A stretch of 64,000 nt of DNA, taken from NCBI GenBank assembly GCA_947172415.1, contig OX359200.1, positions 5,458,501 to 5,522,500 of the forward strand, in the 5' to 3' direction. A program made the position numbers and the translations under genes. Positions 1 to 23,622 of this stretch are shown piece after piece. The first letter of the stretch is position 1. The number at the start of each line of letters is the position of its first letter. Below the pieces are notes generated by a model. That model was not told where the DNA came from and did no database searches. It saw only the letters and a list, made by a program, of their open reading frames with translations. Origin of the DNA: Chondrosia reniformis (Eukaryota > Porifera > Demospongiae > Chondrillida > Chondrillidae).

Positions 1-200
1 ACAGTGATGTATGTACGTGTGTCTGACATACAGTATGTACACAGTGATGTATGTACGTGTGTCTGACATATGTACACAGTGATGTATGTACGTGTGTCTG
101 ACATATGTATACAGTGATGTATGTACGTGTGTCTGACATATGTATACAGTGATGTATGTACGTGTGTCTGACATATGTACACAGTGACGAGTACAGCACC
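1..200. repeat. Minisatellite, about 35-bp unit
   Basis: About five tandem copies of a roughly 35-bp unit containing ACAGTGATGTATGTACGTGT and GTCTGACATATGTA. It lies immediately downstream (minus sense) of the last visible exon of the ubiquitin gene, so it is probably intronic. It may continue past the left edge of the window. Confidence 0.9.
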
Positions 201-239
201 TGACCTCACGGTATTGTTTCCAGTGGTAACAATCTTTAC

Positions 240-3200
240 GAGAGGAGGAATATTGGGATATTGATCTGGGAAGTACATATCAAACAAAAAGCATCCGTAA
301 CTGTATGGAGTATCACAGGGTCCAGTTATCAGAGCGCGGACAAGATCCAAATGATTTTCATCCTTACCAAAAGAAGAAGAAAATATCAAAATGGTAGCAT
401 GAATGAAAACAGAATAGAATATAAGAGGGTAAATATAGAAAAATCAATCAAAAAGAATGGAAACAGATCAATAAAAAATGTAAAGAGCAACCATCATATT
501 ACATTACTCACTTGTCTGATGTAGATGGCCGAGTCTGGATGAGTTTGAAGCAATCCTTCCAGCTTTTTAATCTCACCAAGCAGAGCTTTGACTTTCTGAG
601 GGCTAAAAATGAGTCAGCTTACGTAAGTAGAGTGACCACGTATACTATAGCTGATATAACAGCAGAAAGCAATACACATCAATGTTTAGTTGTAAAAAAC
701 ATATCACTTATGCACTGAAGTGTACATATTTGCATAATTACTTAATGGCTGAAAAAATTACCCATTTTGTATAATATCACACCCTTATAAATCTCCAGTA
801 CTTAGGGATCCATATTACCTATATAGTACATACATACTTGGATGCCATGTTCTCACTCTTGACTTTTGATGCAAAAGAATGGACATCCTAAGTTAATAAT
901 CAGATATATGTACGTAACACTAAATATTAGTTCCCCACAGATTTATATGAATTACCGAAATGCATGATAATCAAACCAAAAGTAATTATAATCATCCTCA
1001 AATATCATGAAGAGGGAAAAACACAAAAGAAGCAATTGCTGAGAATCAAATCCAGAATGGTACAACTGTATGTAAACATACGTACATGCAGTACAATTCC
1101 ATCGTAATTATATTCAGATAGTGTGGACTGGTAGTCTTGAGTGACTTGCTGGTAGTCTATTGTCATATTCCCATAGCCCACACACAGTGACTTGTCAAAT
1201 TGAACAGGAAGGTCAAAGTTCACAGCTGCCAACTAGGACAAGGAGCAGAAGAATTAAAATATGGAAGTGAGACAAATGGACTTATGAATAATGGTGCACC
1301 TGTCTACTAAAACAGATAAATTTGTGTGATGAGGCAAGGTAGTCTCTATTATATGGTCTAGATGCATGGAAGTAAGCCATAATCTTATATGAATAATCTA
1401 ACACCTTTTTCTTACATACTACATTAACTTACGTATTATGTACGTATAATGGTTTACCTGTGAGGAAATCTCTTCCAATATCATCAGTAAATTTTCTGGC
1501 AAAAGCGTATGATTTCTCAGAACAGATTTAGCTTTGACAAATGACTCCAATGAAAAGTCTGGATGTGAAACAAATGACTTAAAAAATCCAGTCTCCCCAG
1601 GTATTTGTGCATTCCATATATGGCAAAAAATAAAGCCTAAGTTCTTCAACATGACTTGAGGGTTAAAGTGATAACTCTCTTTATTTTCGACATTCAGTTG
1701 CGAAGCTTGGGGACCACAAAGAAGTTCAAAAAACTCTGACATCTAAAGGTATAGCATAAAGTCATTTACACTTAAATCAAAACACCCTTTAATTATTGGA
1801 TACAGTACACAAACTGATAAAAAGATTATAAGAAATTAACCAGTAGGACACTAATGAATTTCATAATCAACAAAGTCAACTGTTAAATGGTCGGTGAGAA
1901 CTAGTTATTTAATTAAAGCAACCACATTACAGGACAGTATTTAAGACTCTAGATAAATAATGAACTATATGGTATTAGGACAGTCAGTAGAAGAAACCTA
2001 TAGATATCACCCAATTCTAGTCAGGGTTTGTTTCAGGGAGGGCAGAGGGAGCAATTTCTCCCCCCACCCTGAAAATAACAAATGCTAAAATATGTGCTAG
2101 AATGAACATTGGTGCACTAAATATGTTTGCCCCCTTTCATTTCTATTATCATCATTTTGCCCCCCTTGCTAAATACTCTAAAAGAAACATTGCTAGTATC
2201 TCTATCTTGATCTGCAATCTGCTACCAGAGACAATGTATGGACCATCAAGTAATAACTAATTACGCTTAGAGACTTAATTTAGGGCTGCAATATCATACG
2301 TATACTAGATGGATAAGTTAAATACATTATACCTTTCAACTTACGCAGGCTGCACACTGGTCACTAAGTGGTTCTCTGCACATATCAGCAGCCAGGACAT
2401 CTTCTTCAATCATGACAGCCAAAAACTTTAATAATCTCTCTCCCTGTACATCAATCATTAGATTATATATCAGTGTCATTGTGAAACATCAACAGTACTG
2501 TATCATGTGACTAACATGAATATTGCACCCACGTGCCCATCTTCTGTCCATGTCATAGAACTTCTGTTTCTGAGCTTTCTGGGCTTGAGACAAAGGAGTC
2601 CATTCACGGTCTATAAATAGATATGAAACATTTAATAAATCTGAAAGCTAAATCATGCATATCTTTAGTGTTGTATGGCATGAGGTGTGCTTTAGTACTG
2701 GTAGATACAACTACTTAGAAATCTAGATACCTTACAACACTACTGTTTTATCTTTACAATTACCATTACATATACGTACAAGTACGTATTAGAACTTTTT
2801 AAGGATTTTTAGCTTCTTCCTAAACAGATTTTTTCACTATCTAAGGTGGTTACTTAAAATTACTTGTTTGTAAATATTTATGGATTCCTGCACAATAAGA
2901 TCTGAAACTACATGTCTTACTTTGTTCACACACCATTACACCTATGTACGTACGTACCAGTTCTCCTTAACTTTTCAAATCTTCCAACATCTTTCAATCG
3001 AGTAAGACTTTCACTCAATAAATAGGACAGCATGTCCAGTACACAACGCAGAAATTTCTAAGTGGAAAATTTACAAGAAAATTATTAATATCAAAGTACT
3101 GTTGTTACCATGGTTACCTGGAGTTTTGGTGTCCCAGAGAGTTGTAAAATGGATGCACGGCAATCTCCTCTTTTCCAAAGTTCAGTAAGAATACTTTCAA

Positions 3201-6200
3201 TTTCAGTTCTACATACGTAACATGATGTGTGATCAAGTAAAACTGTCACAATACTATAAACAAATTACTACACATACACACATGCTCAAAGTTTCCACTG
3301 ACAAAAAGGTACATATGCATATACATGTTGATGGCCCGTCCTTGATGACTAAAACAATTGTTTATCTTTTTCCCACTCTCAAATGATGGAAGGCAAATGT
3401 TGCCATGGTGAGGCCTTCCTGTATTGCTTGCATACTCACGTAAGGACCCACTTTGGCTGTGCTATAGACCACACACATATAACAGCAAAGCTAACCGGGC
3501 GCCATATTTTTCAAAATCTTCTTTATCAACATCCACACCCTCTACAGTGTCAACGGCTACGTAGGACTCCAGTAGAGCCGGACCAAGGTGCTCCTTCACC
3601 ACTGGACTGCCTAGCACAATAGCAGAGAGGCCGCCAACAGAACTGAAGGAGAAATGATAGAATGCGAGGGAAGTACACATGACAAACACACTGTTTAAAA
3701 GATACCTGCATTGAGCATTTTATAGAATATAGTACATATACATATACCACAAAGTACATAATAAATAGCATCCAATACATAAACACAGTATGTATACATA
3801 CATATACATATATGTAGGTATGTAGCCCATTGCACAGTGCTTAAAATAAGAACTAGGGCTTGCTTGGACATTTGCCCAACAAATCAATTTTTGTCTTTTG
3901 CATTTTTGGCCAGACATCATCCTATCATCTTAAGAAATTGGATTTAAAACAAATATCAGATTAGAATCATTTTTGCATAGGAAATATATACGCATATACA
4001 CATCAGCTACCACAGTTTTTAAGATAGTAAATAGTAAATACTCATGTTAACATGCAAAACATACAAACACAGGTAAGTACCTTCCCCAATCAATGGACCT
4101 CTTTCCCCTGTATTGTAAAGGAAATAATTATATGAAACACATTAATAAAGAAAAGGTAAACTACGTATGACAACATACGGACCTGTTGGATCTTTGGTCT
4201 GTTCTGATGAATCCATTCAGGATTGAAATGACCTTGGCTTGAGTAACAACATCTTGTAGCAAACTTGGATGTTGCAACAACACAACACAGCAGTCAACAA
4301 GGGGAGTCAGCTACGAGTGGAACAGAGAGCATGGGAAAAGTAGAAAATATACACTTCCTTCAGAGGAACATTATTACCGGTAGAGTCTGATCATTCATAC
4401 GTATACTGTATACAGTTATAGGACACTAAGCCAGTCAGTGTAAGGGGCTATGATGTGATAGAAATAATCACTGGAAGATATTACACCTGACCAACCAAGT
4501 GACCAAAGTCTGATCTTGGTTGGGAGATTAAAGTCCTATTAAATGGTAGCCAGTGATCAACAGTTAAAACTCACAGTTTCTCTCACACACGTACGTACCT
4601 GCATGTGAGCAAAGAACTGAGGTTCAAAGGTAGCCACCAAATTAAACCATTTGGCCATGTCTTTGATAGTATACAGAGGCACAGTAGAAAATATTTCACC
4701 CAATTCTGATGATACATCTGTTAAGGCATCTAAATTCTATTGATGGATTAAAAGAGATTGAATTTCATACATATATATATACGTATCTATATACACACAT
4801 ACATATGATTAAATATGCATATTATACATAACACAATTTTAGGCACTAAAACATTCAAGAGATGCATAGTCTGACGTAGCCCGACCACCGTCCTGCTTCC
4901 ATTTTCCTATGACATCGAGTTATCTACCAGACCACTGTCCTGACCATGACATCATACGTAGGAAAATGGAAGCAGGACAGTGGTGTGGCTACGTCAGACT
5001 AAGAGATGCATGATGATCAATTATACTACTAATTATCTAATATTACAGACTGGATCGGTGACCTATGTACTACAGTAAAACCTCTAATGAAGGACCTCCA
5101 AACAACAGCCAGCCTCTCTACAGTGGACAAACTACTTGCCCTGAATTGACTTCAAAAATAGGACAAAAAATATAGACATAACCTCTAAGAAGGGGAACCT
5201 CTCTAAAAGGGACTAATTCATACTCACCAATGTGTCCTTTCTTCAAGGGTTTTACTGTATATACACGTACATATGTATGCATTTTCAGCTTGTTTGAAAT
5301 ACATGACTTATACCAGGTACATGGAAAGTACGTCGTGGAGGATTTAAAAAATCAAATAATTAAAGACTTGACATGGTCTGTTGCGGGGAGATAACTATCA
5401 CTAATTCTGAACAACATTTACAGCAATTTTACTAAGAATTTTGCTGACCTCTTTGTACTTTTCCATGAGCATCATCAGCCAAACGCAAAAGGTGACATAG
5501 AATTGGGTACACAACACAGCAAAACTGGGATCCAAGAAGTGGGCAACACAGGCAGCAATCACAACCTAAAAATGGCAGACAACTGTGAGTGCATAAGAGT
5601 TGAAGTGTTTTACGGAAAAGATAACAAAACTGTAGACACACGAACCGCATGAAATCGTTTCTCAATTTCCTTCATCGAAGGAGGGAATGACGACCTAATG
5701 AGGAAGGAAGCATTCACTACTGTATATCGGGAATTGAATGTGTGTGTGTGTAAAGAATGCAAGATTGTGAGTTTTGATTGTATGTGCAATCTTTTGACAC
5801 ATACTGATTTGACACCTCAGTAATTCCGTATACACGTCCTGCACACCTAAGCTTTATCTTAACCACAATGTTTACTTATATCCGTAATTTTGACAAATAG
5901 CAATCTTTTACTCTCGCATTCAATTCCCAATATACGGTATATTAGTCCAAAGAGAGGCCGGGCGGGCTCAATTTGGACAAATACTGCATACACCTTGTTA
6001 AGAAATCCTAAATCAGTCCTAGCAATGAATCTCTTAATTCAGGAGTGCAGACATCTCTGCAAGGGACCTGTTGCACCTGGTAAGCTATTTGTGGTTGCCA
6101 GGGGCGACCCTTATCTAGGAGGATACACATCAAATGCACACTTCCAAAAGCTGATTTCAATATTACCAACCTGATCCAATTACAAACCAGGGTTGATCAT

Positions 6201-9200
6201 TAGTACATATAACAAGAAGCACTACACAAAGGGAATACCTTAAAAGATGGAAAGCATGGTCAATTGCTGGAATGAGTCCGACGTGCAACAGTCGCTGGGT
6301 CAGATGAAAGCACTCAGTCATAAAGTTAAAGTCACCTAGACGGAGAAGTCATTCTTTTTCAGTTAACTTAATAGCAATTGCATAATCTGATTACTAACTC
6401 ATTTTTGGTAAACATTTCTCAGCTGTTGAGTCTTCAGCTGTATCTGTTGGAAGTGATCAAAGAATTAAGATAATGGAAGCACAAACACGATTACAAGTAA
6501 ATAGGAATGCTCTAGCACACCTAAACATCCTCTAGCAAGGCACTTCTCCTCCTTAAAGATCAATCTACAGCTGGGAGATCCAGTATATTCCGGTAATATC
6601 TTTTCAAGGTTTGATGTAGGAGTAATTGTATACAGGCTTTGCATCATCTTCAGCATAATGTAGCAGACATTAACAACAAAACCTATGCAGACGAACAAAT
6701 AGGAAGTTCAAACAGAGAGAGTGACGGTGAGTCATTGTACTCTTATCTAGATTCCAGATTTCCCTTGAAGAACTGAAGCAATGTCCAATCAAAAAGTATA
6801 CACACATGTGTACATATCATATATCAGGAATTGAATACGAGTGTCTAAAGATTACAAGCTTTGCACTCATTCACAATCTGTTGACGTGCATTGATTTGAC
6901 ACCTCAGTAATTCAATAATACTATGTAGTCCATACACCCTTAAGCTATATCTAGCATTCTATTAACCACAATGTTTTACTTGTACCTGTAATTTGGATAA
7001 CTCTTAATTTAATACCTTCACATTCAATTTCTGATATATGGTAATATCTGATAAAGTCTAAATCCCTTCTGAGAATGAATATGATGAATCACTGTACTAG
7101 ACCTTAAGTACCATCTGTAGTACAGGACTACTGTACTAGTAAACCTTAAGTACCAACTGTAGTATAGGACTACTGTACTAGTAAACCTTAAGTACCATCT
7201 GTAGTATAGGACTACTGTACTAGTAAACCTTAAGTACCATCTGTAGTACAGAACTACTGTACTAGTAAACCTTAAATACCATCTGTAGTATAGGACTACT
7301 GTACTAGTAAACCTTAAGTACCATCTGTAGTATAGGACTACTGTACTAGTAAACCTTACCATCTGTGGATGTGACCTTAGAAATGGCTTCAGACTCGTAA
7401 CGAGGGCCAGTTCTTTTTTCATTGAGAATTATAACAGCTGCAAACCATCCTAGAACACTGAAAAGAAAAGAAAAGAGAAATCATCATTTTCATTCATCAC
7501 TTGCCATATAATTATAAATGTATTACTGTATGCAAGTTGCACTTTCAAAGAAAGTAAATTTAGAGTTTAATGACTGGAATATATGGGACTATTGAATACC
7601 CATGCACTCTTGGTCAATTGACATGCAGTGATTAACATGCTGTGATTGATATGCAGTGATTGATTACTACAAAGGCTCACAATAACAACTATTGTCACTA
7701 GTGTGCAGTCAGCATCAACGTAACCCTACTTGTTTTTCCCCAAATCTTTAACTTTGGTTAATTTTCTTACAAGTTGAAAGGCAAATTCCTGGCACTTGTT
7801 AATGCCCTGTCTGACTGGGAGCTACAGAAACATACGTAGATTAACCAATCAAACAAACGCAACAGCTTCATACACACAGTCAAAAATGCTACAATTACGA
7901 AACAGGAACACCTACGTACATTGCAAGAATTCAGCCCTGAAACAGTCAGTTGTGGAAATCCTTTCATTGTCAGATAAATTGAGTACTTCTCTCCGGCAAC
8001 TACATCTTGGCTGAACTTTGCAATAACGGGAGTGACAGCAAGCACTTGTCCCAAAAAGGATTTAGCTTCAAAATAAGTAGCCTACAGGAGTAAGTTAATT
8101 ACATTGAAACCTTCAAAACACCTTAAGCAATAAAACTACATTGTGCACCATTTGGCTGTTTTTTGGTCTTTAAAATTGTATCCACAAATACTATTAAATA
8201 ATAAGTATTCATACAAATGTATTTACAATACATCTAGAAGAAGACAAAGATTCCCAGGCTCACTGATAAAGGATGGAATTCCCAAAAACAGCTGTCTGGC
8301 CCAGTGGAGAAGAAGAGAAGGAGAAAAAGTCTTGTATCCTCATTAAAAGCTCCCACTAAGCTACATATAGGCCTTTTACTCTAAAATAGATGTAGCATGC
8401 TGTAAAGTAGTGTTAGATTATTTGTGGCCATTCATTCATGACTTGACTTTACAGTATAACAGATCAGCATAGATAAAGGTGTGGTGATTGCAGTCAAAAT
8501 CAATTAACAATATACATAGACTGTTAACCCTTAAAGATCCATGTGTATATACTTTTCAACTTTCTACTATTTTCACAAATACCTAGAAAACCTATTCTAA
8601 TGTAGAGTAGGTTGATAACCACAATAGTGATATTAATCAATGCAACACATTAGTCATGTACTCACATTAGAAGCCAACGATTCCTCCACTTCTCTTGCAA
8701 GAACATTACAGAGGATATTTACAGCTTCAGACTGTAGAAAGTATTGAAATACAGTATCACAATACAAGTATAAAATGCTTGCAAGGAGAACACCTTTTCC
8801 AGTAGAGGAGAGAGTTTTGACAAACACTTTGAAGCTTCAAAATAAATGTCATCAATTCTATAAAGGCAAAAACATGCTAATTGAACAATGTGCTGTTGCA
8901 ATAATGTGTTTAATTACACAATACACTATATATATTGTTGACTATAAAATACTTACCTTTTAAAATGCATTATTTGTCTTGTACCATTTCTCACCTAAAG
9001 CATTACAGAAACTCCTTTAAAATGTGAATATATGCACAACAACCATATAATCTCAAGGTTTCGTACAATGGATGACACAGCTCTATGCCCAAACTTGTTT
9101 TCTGCAGCGCGACACAACAACTCTGAAAGCATTTCTGGTGGCATGGCCGTTCCTTTGCCATTTTGACCATCAACTAAATCTAGAAATGCTTCATAAATTG

Positions 9201-10567
9201 CCTAAATAAAGATTCCAGCCATAACATCATGTGATGCACTCTTGTGCATAGTCAGATAAACTTACAACTGAGCCATCTTGCCCCAAAACCATACTCCAGA
9301 AATCATCTTCCGGAATATTTTCTCCTGAAGCAATTTTCAAAAGAAAAACAGCTAACTATTATACGTACAGTAATTACTGTCTCAGTAAAATGCACCAGGT
9401 CACATATTACATGAATAATCTAACACACCATTATTCAATATAGTAAATACATCTACTTTAGAGTAAAAAGTTTATAACTGAACCGTTGGATGAGATTACA
9501 AGAGACTTCTTCTTCTCCATGAAAACATTTTAATGGCTTTATAAAAACTTACCTTGAATTAGCTGTTCTAAAGTGACACCAATTACAGCTTCCCGCATCC
9601 CACAACAGATATTAGACCAACACTCTGGGTCCCACTCGGCCTTTGACCGTTGCTTTGATTTGACATAGCACTCGACCAGGAAGTTTAAAATGTTCTAAAA
9701 TAAGTTAAATAGCAAATGTTTGATCCAAATCAACTCTAAATCTAATTATAAGGTATTACCTTAATTTTTCCTAGTCTTTGAAACAGCAAAAACTGAAATT
9801 TCTACAAATATGAAATATAATAATGTTCAAACTGTACATCTTACATTATTGTTACGTATGTGATATGCAGAAGTCCCAGATTATGTATTGCAACATATAG
9901 ATTATATTAGCTTAAGTAAGTTTATGATTGCAACAAGTGAATAGATTGAAATACACATGGCCCAGTGGAGAAAACTGTTGTATTCTCATTCAAAGCTCTC
10001 ACTAGGTTTAGCTTCCTATACAGGCTGGTTTTACTCTAAAGTAGATGTAGCCATGGATTCACAAAAGATCAAGAAAAGACAAAGATTTATAGTTATAGGG
10101 TCACTGATTAAGGGTGGAATTCCCAGAAACGGCTGTCTGTCCCAGTGGAGCAGAAGAAAGAAAAGAAAAGACTCCAGGACCTGTATCTTCACCCAAAGCT
10201 CTCTTCAGGTTTAGTTCCCTATAGGCTTTTTTAGAGTAGGCATAACATGTAGGAAAATGGTGTATTAGAGTTTCATGTAGCATGTTGAGAAATGGTGTGT
10301 TGGAATATTCCTACCTTTTGGTCAGTTGTTGGATTCAGTGGGAGGTCACTCTTTGGTATCACGATCTTTGAATGACTCTTTCTAGAAGAGCTACCTTGTG
10401 GGTTGCCTTCATACAGTACCTACAAATGAATACAAGCATGGGTCTTGTGCAGTGAAAGGATGCTTGCAGTGCTGCATCATGTAGCAAGTAATGGAATATT
10501 AATGAGCTCACTATTTCACAACCAAGTAAATGGGAAAGTCCCGTAGCAGCTGTCCATTCCCGTGTTC
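240..10567 (-). CDS. UFD2/UBE4-type ubiquitin chain-elongation factor with a BIRC6-like E2 domain in place of the U-box (partial)
   Basis: Probable E4-type ubiquitin ligase fused to an E2. UFD2-core exons read on minus include 5449-5565, 4599-4736, 4193-4310 (HPSLLQDVVTQAKVISILNG), 3477-3642 (LGPALLESYVAVDTVEGVDV), 3118-3208, 2958-3057 (FLRCVLDMLSYLLSESLTRL), 2529-2610 (DREWTPLSQAQKAQ), 2345-2443 and 1458-1742 (MSEFFELLCGPQ). These follow UBE4A/UBE4B order closely. Upstream exons include 9553-9694, 9266-9324, 9067-9201, 8666-8731, 7920-8081, 7771-7806 and 6239-6335. Downstream, phase-0 exons 1086-1232, 512-595 and 240-362 run in frame into an E2 fold (LVRALITGPCDTPYSYGCF, then DMYFPDQYPNIPP) most like BIRC6/UBE2O-type E2s. 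The catalytic cysteine and the C-terminus lie beyond position 1. No U-box is seen. The first coding exon and several small exons (near 6.4 and 8.8 kb) are unresolved; a candidate 29-nt exon at 10994-11022 does not join in frame. Confidence 0.83.
4868..5001. mobile_element. Foldback MITE, MULE-like, in an intron
   Basis: Two long inverted arms, about 45 bp each, begin AGTCTGACGTAGCC and end GGCTACGTCAGACT. They flank a short loop and carry GTCCTGCTTCCATTTTCCTA in inverted orientation. The element is flanked by the direct repeat AGAGATGCAT on both sides. A 9-10 bp target duplication is typical of Mutator-type elements. A relative lies at 54593-54708. Confidence 0.8.
5073..5257. mobile_element. 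185-bp MITE with pogo/Tc1-like ends
   Basis: Inverted termini CAGTAAAACCTCTAATGAAG (left) and CTTCAAGGGTTTTACTG (right), flanked by TA on both sides as expected of Tc1/mariner/pogo elements. It has no coding capacity and sits in an intron of the ubiquitin gene. Confidence 0.75.
5718..5941. mobile_element. MITE family B, copy 1 (about 220 bp)
   Basis: The termini are inverted: TACTGTATATCGGGAATTG at the left and CAATTCCCAATATACGGTAT at the right. The interior shares TTTGACACCTCAGTAATT and TTAACCACAATGTTTACTT with copies at 6815-7043, 18736-18893 and 44005-44148. It is noncoding; short ORFs across it are accidental. Confidence 0.75.
6815..7043. mobile_element. MITE family B, copy 2
   Basis: Same family as the element at 5718-5941. 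It has GGAATTGAAT near its left end, CATTCAATTTCTGATATATG at its right end, and the shared interior TTTGACACCTCAGTAATTC. It is more diverged than copy 1. Confidence 0.7.
7101..7355. repeat. Minisatellite, 42-bp unit, about 6 copies
   Basis: Tandem repeats of a 42-bp unit containing ACCTTAAGTACCATCTGTAG and ACTACTGTACTAGT. The unit is a multiple of three, which creates a spurious minus-strand open frame (repeated FTSTVVLYYRWYL). The array abuts the donor side of the ubiquitin-gene exon at about 7360-7449. Confidence 0.92.
8220..8405 (+). mobile_element. SINE-like family A copy (diverged)
   Basis: Shares AAGACAAAGATTCCCAGG, GGATGGAATTCCCA, CAGCTGTCTGGCCCAGTGGA and a terminal TAGGCCTTTTACTC segment with copies at 9950-10300, 16195-16430, 25130-25290, 27870-28100, 48500-48735 and elsewhere. 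Orientation is given relative to the copy at 16195. Confidence 0.7.
9950..10300 (+). mobile_element. SINE-like family A, two overlapping or nested copies
   Basis: A truncated copy (CCCAGTGGAG near 9960) is followed by a fuller copy from about 10047 with GGATTCACAAAAGATCAAG, GTGGAATTCCCAGAAACG and CAGGTTTAGTTCCCTATAGG. It lies in the ubiquitin-gene intron between the exons at 9760-9801 and 10315-10419. Confidence 0.72.
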
Positions 10568-11022
10568 CTACAGGCTAAATAAACACACTAAAGTAACAAT
10601 ACAACCTAGAAACTAGGGAGAGGGAAATCAGGAGGCCAAGTGTTTGGCAACTTTAAGGTACGGACTCGATGATGGAAAGGTAATTGCACTAAACAGTGCA
10701 AAGGCATGATCTGATGGAAATGTAATCCAAGACTTCGTTCACTTGGTTAGTAAGGTGTAATATCTCCCAGTGATTACATTTCCATCATACTTGATGATAT
10801 TCATAACACAAAGAACAATGATTACTGAAAATATTGTAAGACCTAATTAATTATTAATTGTAGGTGGCCCAATACTCATAATTGATACTAATATTTAATT
10901 ACAAATTGTATTTGCAGTCAAGGAAACTCAATTCACAACAGACTCTATTTATCTTATAGATAGCATAGTTCACTGAATAAATGTTTACTTACAAATGTCA
11001 CAGCTTGAAAGCCTGAAGTTGC

Positions 11023-11727
11023 TAAATAGTAAAAATTAAAATAAAGTGTAAAGGGTTTGTAAAACAAGTTAGCTACCACCAGCTAAATCATCTGAAACTA
11101 TTATTTTAAGATAGCTAATTATAAACGAGCAAAACATGGAAAAATGAATAAGCAAAATGGCCGCTTTGAAACGGAACATAATTATTATAAGTTCTTTTAA
11201 TGGATAAAGCTATGTGGCTGCCATTTCTATCTTATAAGTGCAATGTATCAACTTCATAGTCACTAGTGGCCAGCTCCTTAAAGACAGAAGTTATATCTCT
11301 CGATAATGGCGAGCTCACTGGAGATAAATAGTTACATGTATATGTTATATTGCTCATCCTAAAAATTATAAATTACATCATAAATTATCTTGCTAACACG
11401 AAACCTTTCATAGGTCACTACAAGTCCTTTGAGATACAGATTCATGGTAGTGCATTACATATACGAACGCGTACATTAAAGTTCCATATTATTAGAAATG
11501 GTTATCTAATTACTTAGCACATACGACTCACGATCAAAAGATAGATCGTTCATCAATTCGCAAGTCTCCTTCTATCATATTGGGAAAAACCCGAGTCACC
11601 TGAGTTCGTGGGCGTGTTTCAGCCTTGGAAAAATGGCGGCATAGTCGGTATATATATGCATTCATAAAATATGAGAATAGTGATATACGTACACATTAAG
11701 GAAATGGTAAGCTGGGAATGTTTACAA
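11023..11727. other. Intergenic region between the two minus-strand genes
   Basis: About 700 bp between the m-AAA protease stop codon and the first plausible exons of the ubiquitin gene. It presumably holds the protease 3' UTR and the ubiquitin-gene promoter. I see no gene, no strong repeat and no clear TATA box. Confidence 0.5.

Positions 11728-23622
<11,895 letters not shown>

Follow-up and report, generated by a model that had tools for sequence, protein, structure and literature searches.

A predicted gene of Chondrosia reniformis carries a BIRC6-type E2 after a UFD2/UBE4-type core, at the position of the U-box

Introduction

In the part of a published survey that we draw on, all Ufd2-related proteins have their core N-terminal to a C-terminal U-box (Marin 2010, PMC3087547). 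The survey started from U-boxes and so probably had no means of finding a gene of the kind reported here. The tail of Ufd2 binds ubiquitin chains or substrate while the U-box head binds an E2, and the section consulted raises as a question how ubiquitin travels from an E2 at this head to a substrate at the far tail (PMC5303827). An excerpt of a snail inventory lists a ufd-2 that showed only Ufd2P_core (PMC6548493). A limited text search, which mostly covered less than full papers, returned no description of a UFD2-core/E2 fusion.

The original prediction for the locus studied here placed a UFD2/UBE4 core directly before a BIRC6-like E2 in one reading frame, with no U-box between them. We followed it up by curating the gene, identifying its domains and searching its surroundings for a U-box.

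Results

Structure of the gene

The window, the whole 64,000-nucleotide stretch analyzed, is C12:5458501-5522500 in a 117-Mb genome of 15 contigs. From beyond its position 1 we retrieved 18.5 kb and read the adjoining 4.5 kb; positions in the stretch beyond the window are prefixed L009. The gene lies on the minus strand and runs from window position 9694 (tentatively 11553) to L009:5432, that is, 3.6 kb outside the window. Automatic gene-finder models of the locus, in which the choice of exons differed in several places, were set aside for a hand-curated model of 31 exons from 9694 to L009:5432, which encodes 1109 amino acids plus a stop codon and has 0 internal stops (Table 1). Four further exons, which are without homology support, extend it to 1184 amino acids and to an ATG at 11553, a tentative start codon. 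With scripted boundaries, 33/34 donors were GT and 33/34 acceptors AG; the 34th intron is also GT-AG after a 1-base shift from 9552/9323 to 9553/9324 (CAAG/GTAAG and TTCAG/GAGAAA), which leaves the protein unchanged. Splice sites and phases are consistent over the entire model, and the median intron length is 231.5 bp (n = 34 introns of the gene). These phases and the ordinary intron lengths suggest one mRNA and one polypeptide.

The four exons that had been predicted to lead from the core into the E2 were all described as multiples of three with phase-0 junctions. This holds for 1458-1742 (285 nt) and 1086-1232 (147 nt), which had been placed correctly, and fails for the other two: the supposed exon 512-595 extends to 602 (91 nt), and 240-362 begins at 205 (158 nt, end phase 2). 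Nor does the former directly follow 1086-1232, since a 50-nt exon at 838-887 had been overlooked. Despite the missed exon and the two wrong boundaries, the frame does continue from core to E2, through 31 exons without an internal stop.

Table 1. Coding exons and other features of the locus. Positions refer to the window unless prefixed L009.
Feature	Position	Strand	Remarks
Tentative first coding exon, MNDLSFD	11532..11553	-	ATG, GT donor, phase 1; no homology
Tentative exon 2	10512..10567	-	GT-AG, in frame, no homology shown
Tentative exon 3	10315..10419	-	GT-AG, in frame
Tentative exon 4, KFQFLLFQRLGKIK	9760..9801	-	GT-AG, in frame
Exon 1 of 1109-aa model, NILNFLVECYV...	9553..9694	-	Curated model; 3' boundary shifted 1 base
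N-terminal exon	9266..9324	-	Curated model; 5' boundary shifted 1 base
N-terminal exon	9067..9201	-	Curated model
N-terminal exon	8957..8994	-	Curated model
N-terminal exon	8794..8857	-	Curated model
N-terminal exon	8666..8731	-	Curated model
Exon opening the Ufd2 profile alignment (FEAKSFLG); Pfam core match starts at exon end, residue 216	7920..8081	-	
Ufd2 core exon	7730..7821	-	Curated model, Pfam
Ufd2 core exon	7360..7457	-	Curated model, Pfam
Ufd2 core exon	6521..6682	-	Curated model, Pfam
Ufd2 core exon	6399..6443	-	Curated model, Pfam
Ufd2 core exon, MTECFHLT	6239..6335	-	Curated model, Pfam
Ufd2 core exon	5646..5694	-	Curated model, Pfam
Ufd2 core exon	5449..5565	-	Curated model, Pfam
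Ufd2 core exon	4599..4736	-	Curated model, Pfam
Ufd2 core exon	4183..4310	-	Curated model, Pfam
Ufd2 core exon	4081..4107	-	Curated model, Pfam
Ufd2 core exon	3496..3642	-	Curated model, Pfam
Ufd2 core exon	3118..3208	-	Curated model, Pfam
Ufd2 core exon	2958..3057	-	Curated model, Pfam
Ufd2 core exon	2516..2610	-	Curated model, Pfam
Ufd2 core exon	2345..2443	-	Curated model, Pfam
Last Ufd2 core exon, ELLCGPQ...EISSQ, phase 0 both ends	1458..1742	-	Core match ends at its final residue, 812
Junction intron, core exon / linker exon, 225 bp, phase 0, gtaaac...cctag	1233..1457	-	
Linker exon, residues 813-861, 49 residues	1086..1232	-	Open in acceptor phase 0 only; no detectable homology
E2 exon, 50 nt; BIRC6 match begins here, residue 864	838..887	-	
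E2 exon NPQKVKALLGEI...IRQ, 91 nt	512..602	-	
E2 exon DENHLDLVRALITGP...NTV, 158 nt	205..362	-	
E2 exon beyond window, Cys973 codon at 7747	L009:7670-7781	-	
Gene's next exon beyond window	L009:7278-7370	-	
Gene's next exon beyond window	L009:6694-6778	-	
Last exon, stop codon	L009:5432-5589	-	
35-bp tandem array within following E2 intron	1..187, on into L009 down to 8164	.	

Several repeats lie in and near the gene. The 35-bp tandem array in the E2 intron (window 1-187 and L009:8164-9187) has 29 copies in L009, and all three minus-strand frames are open across its approximately 1 kb. A minisatellite with a 42-bp unit occupies window 7101-7358 inside another intron of the gene, and two more are found at 12581-13213 (51-bp unit) and 13671-14000 (25-bp unit). 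Three introns share, by eye, a dispersed element (around CTCCACTGGGCCAGACAGCTGTTTCTGGGAATTCCA); it occurs at window ~8250-8380 and ~9990-10280 and at L009 ~7030-7190. The upstream neighbor, at window ~11739-13600 on the minus strand, we take from its appearance to be an AFG3L2-type mitochondrial protease.

A near-complete UFD2/UBE4-type core

Residues 216-812 of the 1109-aa model match Pfam Ufd2P_core (9.2e-83) over positions 31-626 of its 628, and the match runs through 17 exons, from the end of exon 8081-7920 to the final residue of exon 1742-1458. The latter exon, with its GPQ motif, had been read as the end of a UFD2 core, and this is where the match ends; on its own it matches the Pfam core at 2e-9 in a profile search of the genome. 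Among solved structures the core matched Ufd2 (6e-16), and a two-sequence profile of the core aligned with Ufd2 (2qiz) at 3e-35 over chain residues 230-898. This alignment, which opens at 2qiz residue 230, leaves out the N-terminal exons present upstream, the part that would correspond to the chain-binding tail of Ufd2.

BLAST with the core in its own genome returned only its own locus, and the Pfam core profile found two other loci, on C3 and C10. We call these UBE4B-like and UBE4A-like, respectively, letters that we assigned by reading their sequences. Their gene models are raw and partly wrong, and only conserved stretches were compared, except in one alignment, which used the unedited UBE4A-like model as far as the end of the core. 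In these raw gene-finder fragments, the C-terminal core of the fusion is identical at 51/249 positions to the UBE4A-like gene and at 46/224 to the UBE4B-like gene, which are identical to each other at 63/237.

A complete BIRC6-type E2

Pfam UQ_con matches residues 895-1012 (2.4e-22) in the same open model as the core. At the sequence level, the proposed order of core and E2, with no U-box found between them, is supported. Once the DNA beyond window position 1 is included the E2 is complete, and the gene ends after it. Of the solved structures, BIRC6 (3ceg) gave the best match, 5.2e-67 and 229.7 bits over residues 864-1098, in agreement with the predicted BIRC6-like type. The likeness to UBE2O that had been proposed alongside is weaker (1e-36, 129.5 bits); with BIRC6 scoring 100 bits higher, we rejected UBE2O as the identity of this E2, and likewise UBE2Z (9e-33).

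The active-site stretch RFNPNLYRDGKVCLSLLGT corresponds to RFNPNLYNDGKVCLSILNT of BIRC6, and the FNPN...GKVCLS motif is retained. Cys973 lies within GKVCLSLLGT, aligned to GKVCLSILNT of BIRC6, and is the predicted catalytic cysteine. In the PDB, names in the BIRC6/UBE2O group include 'dual E2/E3' and 'E3-independent E2'.

The E2 is identical at 103/217 positions to the BIRC6 of 3ceg, which we take to be human, and at 96/217 to the genome's own BIRC6-like gene. These two share 139/217, which places the fusion E2 outside the pair. Searching the genome with the E2, the next matches were this gene on C14 (51-57% in pieces) and one on C2, which we named BIRC6-like and UBE2Z-like from reading their sequences. 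A recent copy of BIRC6 was rejected at 44% identity, with no common intron position by eye. Since core (20%) and E2 (44-47%) are both divergent, the fusion is not a recent copy, and BLAST with E2 and core showed no second copy in the genome; it is a divergent lineage. A BIR domain is absent among Pfam matches of the 1109-aa model up to E 1.

The junction between core and E2

The core match reaches position 626 of the 628 in the Pfam model and stops precisely at the donor of the phase-0 junction intron, which measures 225 bp against the gene's median of 231.5 bp. At the upstream edge of the linker exon that follows there is a stop codon, and of the exon's three phases only the required one is open. 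The exon matched no Pfam family above cut-off. At first sight the linker resembled the flank of the BIRC6 E2; we dropped this after a shuffle test. In local alignments of residues 813-863, shuffles scored as high in 773/2000 cases against the BIRC6 of 3ceg and in 447/2000 against the genome's own BIRC6, compared with only 1/2000 in a control that aligned the own and human BIRC6 flanks. The outcome was no different in global mode or with only residues 835-863. One profile alignment reaches further into the linker, with a profile that includes a BIRC6-like row. As the linker has no detectable homology to either side, no homology bridges residues 812 and 864, and it is between the end of the core match at 812 and the start of the BIRC6 match at 864 that core gives way to E2. 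The failed linker test lowers the odds of a fusion and raises those of two separate genes.

Setting aside as spurious the exons placed in between, one raw gene-finder model of the UBE4A-like gene gives phase 0 both at the end of the core-end exon and at the start of the U-box exon. This fits an exchange of exons, with a phase match at a single junction having a chance of one in three. AATAAA and ATTAAA are absent from the junction intron but also from the scanned 0.8 kb downstream of the stop codon; their absence from the intron is therefore uninformative.

Search for a U-box

No U-box was present among the Pfam matches of the 1109-aa model up to E 1; apart from Ufd2P_core and UQ_con these were UEV, zf_ZIC and Stress-antifung, all below cut-off. 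Genome-wide, 9 U-box matches reached E 0.001 or better, with 0/9 on C12. A 32.5-kb region around the gene (window 1-14000, L009 and L010) was also screened, as 1856 ORFs with a minimum length of 12 aa, with a model of five of the genome's own U-boxes, UBE4-like ones included, and the best E was 6. With this model the UBE4-like loci, both part of it, scored 2e-26 and 1e-15. When the UBE4-like rows were removed, their first U-box exons were still found at 6e-8 and 1.5e-5, and a further U-box exon, from the UBE4A-like gene, reached only E 1.1. On these results we rejected a hidden U-box exon between core and E2. The U-box that had been thought possible after the E2 did not materialize either, the gene stopping there and the screen past position 1 finding none. 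A U-box near the gene could have escaped the screen if it is very divergent or split into small exons.

Other E2 proteins in the genome and searches for relatives

An unspliced 1131-aa frame at C9:1465341-1468733 (L024:4341-7733, minus strand) has UBL, E2 and U-box matches above cut-offs and vWA just below. On C6 (L025:1803-4897, plus strand) the UBL-vWA-E2-U-box kind is split into two overlapping frames of 681 aa (vWA) and 365 aa (E2 and U-box). Three related unspliced vWA and E2 frames lie on C12, 30-154 kb beyond the window (L021:2711-5488 and L022:2258-5032 on the minus strand, L023:1490-4363 on the plus strand); a domain scan of L021 and L023 gave no U-box match. By eye, their E2s are without the active-site cysteine, for example GIGLPIL against GKICHS in the U-box-bearing relatives, and cysteine and U-box may have been lost jointly.

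Relatives of the fusion were confirmed neither in bacterial and archaeal contigs (0, full protein and E2 alignment) nor in viral contigs (0, full protein, E2 alignment and core alignment). As the scanned collections were of bacteria, archaea and viral contigs, absence there says little.

Discussion

The locus has a UFD2/UBE4-type core followed by an E2 without a U-box, in an open frame and with an intact active-site motif. We favor a single gene comprising a near-complete core, a linker of about 50 residues and a complete BIRC6-type E2 at the U-box position, and give this reading, working model included, a probability of about 0.58. It would be a third UFD2-like gene, in which U-box exons were most likely swapped for E2 exons of the BIRC6 kind at the phase-0 intron after the core. 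The helical core would grip the substrate or its ubiquitin chain, together with Cdc48/Rad23-type partners, as Ufd2 does; E1 would charge the E2 with ubiquitin at Cys973, and the E2 would pass it on in cis, making a U-box dispensable. That such an E2 bypasses the recruitment of an E2 by a U-box, as originally proposed, would be reasonable. We infer a single transcript, transfer in cis, an E4-like role and independence from other E3s; in the simplest view this would be an E4 requiring only E1 and ubiquitin. For the fully self-contained version, in which a single protein would accept ubiquitin from E1 and, with a BIRC6-type E2 replacing the U-box, lengthen or branch chains on substrates bound to its own UFD2 core, so that an animal lineage would have united the E2 and E3/E4 steps, we would put the odds somewhat short of even.

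A single gene could also encode an E2 that needs a partner E3 or modifies only itself, with the core as a targeting scaffold and not an E4. Over the compared stretch the core shares just 20% identity with the two UBE4-like genes, and its partners may accordingly differ; but the E2 belongs to a group whose PDB names, given above, speak of E3 function. We regard this as unlikely. Somewhat less probable, but to be taken seriously, are two adjacent genes on the same strand, a U-box-less UFD2-like gene ending in the junction intron and a BIRC6-like E2 gene starting at Met835. This methionine is in frame in the linker exon, the core read on into the intron meets a stop after 12 codons, and the linker exon shows no homology to link it with either the E2 or the core. 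A U-box-independent role of Ufd2 has been reported, in the portion consulted (PMC4582114), and artefacts that merge neighbors are common: by the excerpted account, most helminth-specific two-domain fusions were judged likely gene-prediction artefacts in 2026 (PMC12964723). However, about 225 bp would have to accommodate both the end of one gene and the start of the other, the core match is all but full length exactly at the donor, the 22 codons from the linker acceptor to Met835 are open in the phase that joins the core and in that phase only, and the introns at the junction are of ordinary length.

A decaying pseudogene or an assembly error seems very improbable. Arrays such as the ~1-kb one in the E2 intron are error-prone spots; this one, however, lies within the E2 and away from the core/E2 junction, the exons flanking it rebuild the VRFNPNLY motif across it, and no other near-identical E2 piece was listed in the genome. 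Decay is hard to reconcile with 1109 open codons over 31 exons.

If the single-gene reading is true, two normally separate ubiquitin enzymes reside within one protein, and the U-box would be exchangeable for an E2. A natural protein with an E2 on its head would offer a clean test of Ufd2 transfer, because the cis geometry would be fixed and E1 plus one protein should suffice.

Compared with known systems, the fusion protein is like UBE4A, UBE4B and Ufd2 in its Ufd2P_core, matched across almost the full Pfam model, but where these carry a C-terminal U-box it has a complete E2, and a U-box was not found. With BIRC6 (Apollon/BRUCE), an E2/E3 hybrid, it has the E2 in common, whereas its model is without a BIR domain, the flank before the E2 is dissimilar and intron positions differ by eye. 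UBE2O, an E3-independent E2, is a large protein with an E2 of related type, at the lower similarity noted above. The UBL-vWA-E2-U-box proteins of the same genome are long unspliced frames with a U-box and without a Ufd2 core, unlike the fusion, yet like it they combine, within one polypeptide, an E2 with an E3-type module.
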